Source: Bacteroidales bacterium
GTDB lineage: Bacteria; Bacteroidota; Bacteroidia; Bacteroidales; NBLH01
Direction: 5' to 3'
NCBI GenBank assembly: GCA_016937695.1
Contig: JAFGWC010000046.1
Span: forward strand, 1 to 64,000
DNA: 64,000 nucleotides
Positions 3,064 to 7,706 of this stretch are shown piece after piece. The position numbers and the translations under genes are program-made. Numbering within the stretch: position 1 is the stretch's first letter; each line of letters starts with the position of its first letter. A model generated the notes under the pieces. The model saw only the letters and a program-made list of their open reading frames with translations. It made no database searches and was not told where the DNA came from.

Positions 3064-4001
3064 TGAAACCAAATCTTTTTATTGTTGGAATGCCCAAAGC
3101 AGGAACAAGCGCTTTATATTTTTTTTTAAAGCAACATCCCGAAATTTTTATGTCAGAAGATAAAGAACCAAATTATTTTTGTGCTGATTTAATCGAAGAA
3201 AGCGATAATTTTCATAAACGTAAATTTGAAGATTTTAGATATAGAAATGAAAAATCGTATTTAAAACTGTTTGAAAATAAAGATAAATTTAAAATTGCAG
3301 GCGAAGCTTCAACACAATATCTTTTTTCGAAAAAAGCAGCCGAAAATATTTATAATTTTAATACAAAAGCAAAAATTATAATTATAATTCGAGAACCAGT
3401 AAGTTTTTTGTATTCGTATCATTCTCAATTACTTAGAAATGTAAGAGAAAATATATTAGACTTTAAAAAGGCATTGGAATTTGAACCCGAAAGAAAAAAA
3501 TTAAATAAATATCCAAGTAATGTTAGATTTCCATCACAATTGCATTATACCGATTGGATTGATTATAAATCGTAGATTAACAGATATTTACAATGTTTTC
3601 CGAAAGAAAATATTAAAATTTTGATTTTTGAAGAATATAAAAAAGATAATTTAAAATATTATAAACAAATTTTAGATTTTTTAGGTGTAAATAATAGTTT
3701 TATTTTTGAATTTAAGGAAGTTAACGCAAATTTAGAAGTTAGAAATATTTATATAAAAAGCTTTTTTATAAAATTTACACGATTTGTAATAAAAACAGCT
3801 AAATTATTTTTTCCTGAAAAACTGGCTAAAAAAATTGAACCTGCATATTACAAAATTATTTCAAAAATAACGGTAAAAAAAGCATCACGAAAAAAAATAA
3901 ACGAAGAATTAAAAATAAAATTAAAACAAAAATATAAAAATAATGTTTTTGATTGTCAGCAATTTATAGATAAAAACCTATTTGAAATTTGGAAATATTA
4001 A
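3063..4001 (+). pseudogene. Sulfotransferase, interrupted by one in-frame TAG
   Basis: The N-terminal part (3063-3575) has the PAPS 5'-phosphosulfate loop GMPKAGTSALYFFLKQHPE and the 3'-phosphate segment IIIIREPVSFLYSYHSQ of sulfotransferases that modify carbohydrates. A TAG at 3573-3575 ends this ORF. The same frame then continues without a stop to 4001, through NRYLQCFPKENIKILIFEEYKKD, which is the expected downstream sulfotransferase sequence. Full length would be 312 codons, normal for the family. One point mutation (for example CAG or AAG to TAG) explains the break; a sequencing error or readthrough is possible. TAG is a normal stop elsewhere here (arsR, ricT), so recoding is unlikely. 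The intact gene at 10381-11229 could supply a similar activity. Confidence 0.85.
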
Positions 4002-4004
4002 AGC

Positions 4005-4742
4005 TTAATTTTCTTTTGTAAACTCACAAATTATATGTCTGCAATTATTTTGATTTGCAGTAAAAAGCGTTTTTTTAGCAAATTTTAATTGCAATTTATT
4101 CATTATTGAATAAGGGAAAAGTGTAGAAAAAATAGCATTTGCTTTAAAAATAAAACCTTTTTTTACTAAAAAATATGCTTTTTCAAACTTAAATTTTGAA
4201 AACGAATTTTTAATCATTTCTAAAGAATAATGCCTGTAATGTTTAGCTTTTACCGGAAAAACATTAATCGAAGGTAAAGACACAATCAATTTTCCGCCCG
4301 GTTTTAGTTTTTTATAAATATTTTCAACAAAATTTTCGATTTCCGCATCAGGTATATGTTCAAGCACTTCGATTAAAGTTATTAAATCAAACTCAAATTC
4401 GGCTTCTGCAAAATCGCCATTTACAAAAGTTGCATTTTTTCTGTTGAAATTTAGTGCTTTTGCCAATAAAATTGCAGGTTCTGACAAATCATATCCAAAA
4501 TGCTGTTTTTCTTTATTCAACTTGCTTATAATCGAAATTAATTTTCCGTCGCCGCATCCAATATCTAAATGATTTTTGTAATCTATATCTAAAATCAGCT
4601 CTTTTACTTTGTTAATGTACGCGTAATATTCAATTCCCCAATTTAAATTTTTAAAACTTTTAAAATTCTCAAAATCAACCAAATAGTGATATGGGAAGTT
4701 ATATTGCAATTCTTGTATTTTGAACTTATTTATATTGCTCAT
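4005..4742 (-). CDS. Class I SAM-dependent methyltransferase
   Basis: A 245-residue protein with a Rossmann-type SAM fold. Motif I is LDIGCGDGKLI, near residues 58-68, followed by an acidic loop (GYDLSEPAI), then the segment LITLIEVLEHIPDAE and a motif KLKPGGKLIVSLP. This is the UbiE/Methyltransf_11 type. In glycan loci such enzymes usually methylate sugars or act as small-molecule methyltransferases. It is the last gene of a two-gene - strand unit, 2 bp after the glycosyltransferase at 4745-5947, and it converges on the broken sulfotransferase with only 3 bp between them. The acceptor substrate is unknown. Confidence 0.82.
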   Translation of the reverse strand: MSNINKFKIQELQYNFPYHYLVDFENFKSFKNLNWGIEYYAYINKVKELILDIDYKNHLDIGCGDGKLISIISKLNKEKQHFGYDLSEPAILLAKALNFNRKNATFVNGDFAEAEFEFDLITLIEVLEHIPDAEIENFVENIYKKLKPGGKLIVSLPSINVFPVKAKHYRHYSLEMIKNSFSKFKFEKAYFLVKKGFIFKANAIFSTLFPYSIMNKLQLKFAKKTLFTANQNNCRHIICEFTKEN

Positions 4743-6037: not shown

Positions 6038-6193
6038 ATGCTTGTTTCATTTTTTTATCAAAAAACTAAATTTATTGGTAATCGAAGATATTAATAAAAT
6101 TGTTCAGGCCGAAATTGATTTTTATATTTATAATCTCTGCAAGTTTTAAAAATATTGCGTTTAAAACGATATTTTTACTCTTTGATTTCATTT

Positions 6194-6417
6194 AACACGA
6201 TAATTCCGAAAGTATGATTTGCGATTAACCCGATAATTACGAAAGTATAGTTTGTGATTAACTCGATAATTCAGAAGCATAATTTGCATTAACCCGATAA
6301 TTCCGAAAGTGCAATTTATGATTAACCCGATAATATAGAAAGTTTAAATTGTAAATAACCCGATAATTAAACAAGTTAAATTTGTAAATAACCCGATAAT
6401 TGTGTAAATTTGTTATG
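6194..6417. repeat. Seven tandem ~33-bp repeats upstream of the ATPase gene
   Basis: Seven head-to-tail units start at 6194, 6227, 6260, 6291, 6324, 6357 and 6390. Five full units are 33 bp, the third is 31 bp and the last is shortened. Every unit begins with AACnCGATAAT (mostly AACCCGATAAT); the second halves diverge. Units 6 and 7 contain a perfect Bacteroidota -7 element TAAATTTG (6377-6384 and 6405-6412), and earlier units carry near-matches such as TATAGTTTG. The array ends about 20 bp before the likely ATG of the ATPase gene, so it most likely holds promoters and/or iterated protein-binding sites. There are no spacers of CRISPR type. Confidence 0.85.
6405..6412 (+). promoter_or_regulatory. 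-7 promoter element of the DUF4143 ATPase gene
   Basis: TAAATTTG matches the Bacteroidota -7 consensus TAnnTTTG and lies 26 bp upstream of the ATG at 6438. A second identical octamer in the preceding repeat unit (6377-6384) could be an alternative start site. No clear -33 TTG was identified. Confidence 0.5.
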
Positions 6418-6437: not shown

Positions 6438-7706
6438 ATGGATTCTGAATATTTAATTGACAGAGATATATACAGCAAAATACTAAATCATTTATCTAAG
6501 AAAGAAATTACAATAATAAGTGGAACCAGACAATGTGGAAAATCTACAATTCTTCATAAATTAAGAACAAATCTTGAAAAAGCAGGCGAGAATACAATAT
6601 TTTTAAATTTTGATTTTGAAAAAGACAAAAAATTTCTTGAAACTCAAGAATCATTAATTAATAAACTTGAATTTGAATTTGGTAATAATAAAGCATATGT
6701 TTTTATTGATGAAATTCAGCGAAAAGAAGATGCAGGCTTGTATTTAAAAGGCATTTACGATTTAAAATTACCTTATAAATTTATAGTTTCGGGTTCGGGA
6801 AGTATCGAACTGAAAGAAAAAATACAAGAATCGCTTGCAGGCAGAAAACGCGTGTTTGAAATGAATACTGTTAATTTTACTGAATTTGTAAATTATAAAA
6901 CCGATTATAAATATTCGGACAGATTAGATAAATATTTTGAATTTGAAAAAGAAAAAACAGATGAATTATTAATCGAATTTATGAATTATGGCGGATATCC
7001 GAGAATAGTTACAGAAAAAGACGTGAATGAAAAAACAGAATTAATAAATGAAATTTACAACAGTTATATTGAACGTGATTTAATACGATTATTGAACATA
7101 AATAATGCGGAACTTTTTAAAGATATTTTTCGAATGTTATCAATTATGTCCGGCAAATTAATAAATTTTTCAAATATAGCTGATGATACAAGCACATCTG
7201 TTCAAACTCTTAAAAAGTATTTACATTTTGCAGAAAAAACATATTCGATAAAAACTATAAGGCCTTATTTTAACAATTCGATAAAAGAATTAAGAAAATC
7301 GCCAATGATTTATTTTACAGATATTGGATTAATGAATTTTACAATAGGCAAGTATGGTTTGTTAAGCAATTCAATGGATTTTGGTTTTGTATTTCAAAAT
7401 TTTGTTTATAATATACTTAAAGATAAGGTTTTACGAAACATGGAAATTAAATATTGGCGAACAACCGATAAAGCAGAAGTGGATTTTGTTGTTGATAGAA
7501 TTACCGATGTTATTCCCATTGAAGTAAAATACAAAAAACTGAAAAAAGAAACTATCGACAGAGCTTTTAGAAGTTTTATTGATAAATATAATCCTGAAAT
7601 TGCTTATGTTGTAAATTTAAGTTTGGATAAAACAATAAAAATAAAAAATACAACTATTCGTTTTATTCCCTACACAAAATTGTTTGTTGAAGATTTATTT
7701 TCTTGA
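6438..7706 (+). CDS. ATP-binding protein, AAA_14 + DUF4143
   Basis: With the ATG at 6438 the protein has 422 residues; a TTG at 6420 would add six. The Walker A motif is SGTRQCGKST (about residues 28-37) and Walker B is VFIDEIQ (about 88-94). A central winged-helix-like segment is followed by the C-terminal DUF4143 region with YWRTTDKAEVDFVV and PIEVKY, a nuclease-like fold in which the ExK-type triad EVDF...EVKY is present. Members are common, often repeated and poorly understood in Bacteroidota, with suggested links to mobile elements or toxin-like functions. It is the only + strand gene inside a - strand glycan cluster and is preceded by a tandem repeat array, which suggests an independent insertion. 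The function is unproven. Confidence 0.85.
   Translation: MDSEYLIDRDIYSKILNHLSKKEITIISGTRQCGKSTILHKLRTNLEKAGENTIFLNFDFEKDKKFLETQESLINKLEFEFGNNKAYVFIDEIQRKEDAGLYLKGIYDLKLPYKFIVSGSGSIELKEKIQESLAGRKRVFEMNTVNFTEFVNYKTDYKYSDRLDKYFEFEKEKTDELLIEFMNYGGYPRIVTEKDVNEKTELINEIYNSYIERDLIRLLNINNAELFKDIFRMLSIMSGKLINFSNIADDTSTSVQTLKKYLHFAEKTYSIKTIRPYFNNSIKELRKSPMIYFTDIGLMNFTIGKYGLLSNSMDFGFVFQNFVYNILKDKVLRNMEIKYWRTTDKAEVDFVVDRITDVIPIEVKYKKLKKETIDRAFRSFIDKYNPEIAYVVNLSLDKTIKIKNTTIRFIPYTKLFVEDLFS

Follow-up and report, generated by a model that had tools for sequence, protein, structure and literature searches.

The ATPase-nuclease gene of the window (the 64,000-nucleotide stretch of a Bacteroidales contig analyzed here) is preceded by a seven-unit repeat array. 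We propose that this array serves as the operator of the gene itself, in which candidate binding sites for the encoded ATPase are lined up, and we assign this reading a probability of approximately 0.7. The array itself was confirmed to be real and lies far above chance. At the sequence level, genes of the DUF4143/PDC-S01 family were shown to regularly carry upstream putative sites that overlap a predicted promoter, are spaced by two or three helical turns, and vary in sequence with the protein clade.

A sequence-only reading of this stretch had described seven units of approximately 33 bp that keep the core AACnCGATAAT while the remainder drifts, and this was borne out, with one unit being 31 bp. 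The units run head to tail over 6191-6412 (Table 1), and the core occurs nowhere else in the window. Core-to-core distances are 33, 33, 31, 33, 33, and 33 bp, so the period is not strictly constant; TRF assigned a period of 33 and 6.4 copies to the array. The mean pairwise identity of the units is 0.69, and core columns are nearly all 7/7. The lag-33 self-similarity of the array is 51.6, compared with a ceiling of 18.0 over 2000 dinucleotide shuffles and a top score of 15.6 elsewhere in the window, outside the array neighborhood. A CRISPR array was rejected because the units are head to tail, 31-33 bp long, only 0.69 identical, and without spacers. A structured RNA leader was also rejected, since the sole Rfam match is at chance level (E 0.79) and lies outside the array. 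Elsewhere in the same genome, nine scattered single cores were found versus 18 for a reversed-pattern control. Since these nine fall within the control range, the genome has one array and shows no sign of a regulon.

Table 1. Coordinates of the repeat units, the likely -7 box, and the ATPase-nuclease gene with its domains
Feature	Position	Strand	Remarks
Repeat unit 1	6191..6223	+	core AACACGATAAT 6194-6204
Repeat unit 2	6224..6256	+	core AACCCGATAAT 6227-6237
Repeat unit 3, 31 bp	6257..6287	+	core AACTCGATAAT 6260-6270
Repeat unit 4	6288..6320	+	core 6291-6301
Repeat unit 5	6321..6353	+	core 6324-6334
Repeat unit 6	6354..6386	+	core 6357-6367; TAAATTTG at 6377-6384, TTTG 6381-6384 = likely -33 box
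Repeat unit 7, shortened	6387..6412	+	core 6390-6400, occupies the interval from the likely -33 box to the likely -7 box
Likely -7 box TAAATTTG	6405..6412	+	Bacteroidota TAnnTTTG, 20 bp after TTTG 6381-6384
ATPase-nuclease gene, 422 aa	6438..7706	+	AAA_14 + DUF4143; PADLOC PDC-S01
AAA+ domain	6501..6887	+	Walker A GTRQCGKST and Walker B FIDEIQ, both intact
Winged-helix-like segment, residues 224-274	7107..7259	+	AlphaFold2; proposed DNA reader
PD-(D/E)XK nuclease-like domain, residues 290-411	7305..7670	+	D349, E362, K364

Bacteroidota promoters follow a -33/-7 consensus in which the -7 box reads TAnnTTTG. The array overlaps the ATPase gene's own promoter as predicted from this consensus, and the likely -33 and -7 boxes frame the core of the last unit. 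Perfect -7 elements had been noted in the last two units, and both contain exact TAnnTTTG boxes. The broader idea of a promoter array held insofar as the repeats overlap one promoter; it did not hold for the array as a whole because exact -7 boxes are confined to these two units. The same layout, TTTG-N20-TAnnTTTG with a core inside, was found in L041 and L037. Among Bacteroidota DUF4143 genes, an exact TAnnTTTG lies within 100 nt of the start in 89/118 cases versus 11/118 for shuffled sequences. In this phylum, the last base of the array most commonly precedes the -7 box by 2-6 bp, with a wide spread.

The ATPase gene had been described as a stray + strand gene in a - strand glycan cluster, and its neighbors are indeed glycosyltransferase, methyltransferase, and sulfotransferase genes, all on the - strand. 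ATG 6438 is a likelier start than TTG 6420 because the corresponding MDS is also where close homologues start. The protein scored 105.2 bits against AAA_14 (PF13173; cut-off 27) and 119.9 bits against DUF4143 (PF13635; cut-off 28.1), and matched the PADLOC PDC-S01 profiles at E 3.5e-77 over residues 7-390 of 422. The PDC-S01 models also matched six relatives, five of which bear arrays and one a palindrome. In the AlphaFold2 model (12 sequences; mean pLDDT 88.7, pTM 0.88), the domain order is AAA+, helical lid, winged-helix-like segment, and PD-(D/E)XK-like domain. The order of elements in residues 224-274 (helices 224-236, 244-251, and 255-267, strand 271-274) reads as winged-helix-like in this model. 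Among 173 proteins, D349 is present in 173, E362 in 162, and K364 in 162. A PDB sequence search with the window protein found no relative. The closest PDB folds are AAA+ proteins, archaeal Orc1 on DNA being first, with TM-scores of only ~0.3.

In a divergent DUF4143 clade, the nuclease residues corresponding to E and K are altered (Q..T, E..G, and similar). Its members are L018, L019, L021, L022, L176, L185, L210-L213, and L215; four are from the window's own genome, and a 33- or 23-bp array was found in 0/11. Since these genes form one clade, the absence of arrays counts as a single event.

A scan of genome contigs seeded with the window protein alone yielded no relatives. These were instead found by whole-genome searches and by screening GTDB species genomes for pairs of TAACCCGATAA motifs separated by 14-30 bp, which gave 19 loci. 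In this array-first scan, the ATPase gene adjoins five of the seven arrays of the window's type; it directly follows the array in L037 (a Chlorobiota MAG), L039 (a Draconibacterium MAG), L040, L041, and L046. Twelve homologues at 46-84% identity form, together with the window gene, a subfamily of 13 distinct genes, all of which have at least two such sites immediately upstream. The sites relate to TTTAAyCCGAkAAt, and the number of units ranges from 2 to about 8 (approximately 8 in G004). The core reads CCGATAA in G004, G042, G618, and L046, CCGAGAA in G059, G662, and G717, and CCCTGCTAA in G511. In the CCGAGAA clade, the recognition-helix stretch is also changed, from LKK/LKR/LKN to LKT and from AEKT to AEQT/AEQI. 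Inverted sites are additionally present in L037, G005, G028, and G739. Because neighboring genes differ among the homologues, the gene and its upstream array together are the shared unit. The exact motif pair was found in none of 394 other genomes of the phylum and in no viral contigs; the core is subfamily-specific.

Several other matches were set aside or noted separately. The G005:C634 match arose by chance within a hydrolase gene, and low-complexity ACCCGATA repeats at WOR-3, Acidobacteriota, Saprospiraceae, KR13, Cyanobacteria, and Jorgensenbacteria loci were considered unrelated. In Oscillospiraceae, L051 (3820-3953, - strand) has at least four copies of 41-bp units around ATAACCCGATAAACT; no match to an ATPase of the window's subfamily was found at this locus, and the array may be unrelated. 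Short inverted clusters of TATCGGGTTAT / ATAACCCGATAAT lie between genes in L042 and L052, which are Cyclobacteriaceae and Cytophagales loci, with no DUF4143 gene of the window's subfamily detected nearby.

A survey was conducted on 106 usable DUF4143 genes from 60 relatives and the loci already collected; start codons were assigned by rule, and many of the genomes are MAGs. DUF4143 is present in 55 of the 60 relatives, with up to 29 copies per genome. Within 200 bp of upstream sequence, direct repeats were significant (shuffle p <= 0.01; per-gene floor 0.005) at 51/106 DUF4143 genes, compared with 8/103 downstream and 14/144 upstream of neighboring genes. When only lags of 22, 23, 32, and 33 were counted, the corresponding numbers were 45/106 upstream versus 4/103 downstream (Fisher p 6e-12) and 4/144 at neighbors (1e-15), and these last four are, judging by coordinates, DUF4143 arrays seen from divergent genes. 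Upstream mean self-identity was highest at lags 32-33 (0.358 and 0.347, versus 0.290 downstream). A lag of 32 or 33 was found in 47 of 70 significant arrays and a lag of 21-23 in 12; after collapse at 45% identity, 13 of the 17 clusters with arrays had spacings of 22-23 or 31-33 bp. Approximately half of the DUF4143 genes lack a significant direct repeat; a palindrome takes its place in some, and in others nothing was detectable.

The unit sequences are private, such as GCCAACTTGCCGAACAGAAAGCA repeated five times in L147 and AAAGTGTAAAACAAAACACCTTC four times in L144. Beyond the window's subfamily, the repeat sequence changes and the array architecture stays. The sequence-only reading had named absence of the core from other DUF4143 genes among its refuting conditions, and the outcome favors the reading: homologous ATPase genes have upstream arrays that share the core, and more distant DUF4143 genes have upstream arrays of other sequence at the same spacing. 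Its suggestion that the sites lie on one face of the DNA is strongly supported by the clustering of spacings at 32/33 and 22/23 bp. DUF4143 genes are often paired or in threes within a few kb, often with different upstream motifs (L129 [G028:C116], L073/G043:C45, L083, L060, and G055:C168).

The array pattern recurs in Clostridia, Gammaproteobacteria, and Treponema and, weakly, in an archaeon (Methanomethylovorans). Significant upstream direct repeats were found in 7/26 clostridial genes, with lags of 33 and 23 among them, and in 4/29 gammaproteobacterial genes, twice at lag 23. Three of nine plasmid copies had a matching lag at p < 0.05, namely, Treponema (lag 32, p 0.005), Methanomethylovorans (lag 32, p 0.015), and Agrobacterium (lag 22, p 0.03); the other six were above this threshold at these lags. 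In place of direct repeats, many gammaproteobacterial DUF4143 genes carry one clear palindrome ahead of the start, and inverted repeats were found upstream of 42/173 DUF4143 genes versus 16/166 downstream. A single long near-perfect palindrome lies just 5' of the start in L216 (ATGACAAATTGTCAATTCAATTGACAATTTGTCAT), L217, L219, L222, L227, and L234.

Spacing was compared with a FastTree tree of 173 proteins, which has long branches, and repeat classes were labelled at p <= 0.02. The 33-bp, 23-bp, and palindrome classes require 12 changes over 97 labelled genes, compared with at least 33 in 200 shuffles. The 33- and 23-bp classes alone require one change over 61 genes (at least 9 in shuffles), and the 23-bp clade unites Bacteroidota, Clostridia, and Gammaproteobacteria. 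Similarity between upstream sequences is lost once protein identity drops below about 45-50%. Thus, the spacing is inherited along with the protein, and the sites diverge rapidly. The candidate sites are specific to the protein clade. Residue-by-repeat covariation is weak and diffuse, with peaks at residues 148-194 and 374-387, not in the predicted recognition helix, and was not taken as proof.

In the proposed mechanism, the core would be read by the winged helix of the DUF4143 half, and adjacent ATPase subunits would occupy one DNA face, probably cooperatively through their AAA+ domains. The last unit, between the -33 and -7 boxes, would block RNA polymerase when occupied, and the ATPase gene would thereby keep its own expression low. 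Release would follow when the protein is diverted from the array or its nucleotide state or oligomeric state changes, as might happen in phage infection, and the PD-(D/E)XK nuclease would then act. As for an antiviral role of the window ATPase-nuclease, it is a database prediction only. The predicted operator probably acts by repression, although occupancy of the array may activate the gene instead. Among the three proposals of the sequence-only reading, a platform to which the ATPase itself binds has the best support, with tree coupling, promoter position, and the winged-helix-like segment pointing to it. The altered recognition-helix stretch in the CCGAGAA clade also speaks for the operator reading. 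Against it stand the DUF4143 genes that lack a significant direct repeat, the covariation peaks away from the predicted recognition helix, the inverted units in some arrays, the two arrays without this ATPase, and the long branches of the tree.

The operator may alternatively be read by a different, host-encoded regulator of ATPase genes, the ATPase itself not binding. Arrays of the window's type without an ATPase gene beside them, in L044 and L047, are consistent with such a regulator, as both genomes lack the window's subfamily; these two cases indicate that an array can exist without its gene. They may be remnants or sites captured by another promoter. The L044 array (about 3700-4320) lies directly before a secreted glycoside-hydrolase-like gene, and the L047 array (about 4430-4550) before non-coding sequence. 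However, the spacing class tracks the ATPase clade across three bacterial groups (Bacteroidota, Clostridia, and Gammaproteobacteria), the core differs between DUF4143 genes, which is not expected of a shared host regulator, and the core has no regulon in the window's genome. We consider a host regulator unlikely.

We regard as similarly improbable that the array, in addition to being an operator, serves as a platform for assembly or licensing, on which AAA+ subunits polymerize like initiators on origin boxes, holding the nuclease inactive (or arming it) until invading DNA shifts the balance. Arrays with up to about eight sites, as in G004, are more than one promoter block needs, the units are helically spaced, Orc1/Cdc6 and DnaA are among the PDB fold matches of the window protein, and the clade with altered nuclease residues, a single event, lacks 33- and 23-bp arrays. 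However, many relatives manage with two units or a single palindrome, and autorepression alone explains the position of the array.

The repeats were also proposed to be a target for the mobility of the ATPase. As ends or targets of a mobile element, they would involve the ATPase-nuclease in transposition, as for TnsA/TnsC and the 22-bp TnsB sites of Tn7. Consistent with this, presence is patchy, as a whole-genome search across 393 genomes of the order found close homologues in 10, with a single one per genome, and their neighbors differ; a 74%-identical copy is present in a Chlorobiota MAG, and sites flank the gene on both sides in G005. However, the repeats are upstream only in nearly all cases and recur downstream in few of the tested genes, some of these being plain duplications. 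They also abut the promoter at a preferred distance, and no recombinase or inverted ends were seen. Involvement in transposition is very unlikely. In L091, the same two-unit array recurs on either side of the gene, accompanied by other flanking sequence, which resembles a tandem duplication of the whole unit. A hypermutable, copy-number-variable promoter switch (phase variation) is scarcely credible: although unit number varies among homologues, the units are too diverged to be freshly copied or to resemble slippage-prone arrays, and private sequences at a conserved spacing are as in binding sites.

If the array is the ATPase's own operator, it provides each PDC-S01 protein with a ready DNA substrate, a predicted operator, and a regulatory hypothesis. 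Clade-specific cis arrays may offer a way to read the DNA specificity of the family directly from genomes, and private arrays would help to explain how up to 29 copies exist in one genome without cross-talk. A more general picture, which we offer as speculation and consider doubtful in its entirety, is that PDC-S01 ATPase-nucleases are widespread self-addressed modules, each with a private promoter array on which AAA+ subunits assemble at whole-turn spacing. The array would repress the gene and hold the nuclease safe and pre-assembled until phage DNA or protein disrupts it, and orthogonal arrays would let tens of copies coexist per genome.

PDC-S01 is a single-gene phage-defence candidate that combines an ATPase with PD-(D/E)XK (PMC12988326). 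In the available text of this source, it ranks fourth among prokaryotic defences by how common they are, and most such candidates are stated to await validation still; the upstream repeats are outside the definition of PDC-S01 and unmentioned in that text. In the papers searched, we found no description of upstream repeats at DUF4143, COG1373, AAA_14, or PDC-S01 genes, and nothing on the DNA target or regulation of PDC-S01. BrxR, of the WYL family, is reportedly a winged-helix autoregulator that controls a defence locus at its own promoter. Regulators of the BrxR type are separate genes, whereas the regulator proposed here is the ATPase-nuclease itself, on tandem sites at whole-turn spacing. 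Orc1/Cdc6 origin boxes, DnaA boxes, and plasmid iterons are arrays of short sites bound by AAA+ proteins with a DNA-reading domain, often with autoregulation. The window protein resembles these initiators in that Orc1 on DNA is its top fold match; in contrast, it has a nuclease domain, its TM-score is ~0.3, and its putative sites lie on a promoter with no origin known. In Tn7, the PD-(D/E)XK nuclease TnsA and the AAA+ ATPase TnsC act together with repeats of about 22 bp. Unlike Tn7, the window has one fused protein, no TnsB, and one-sided repeats at the promoter.
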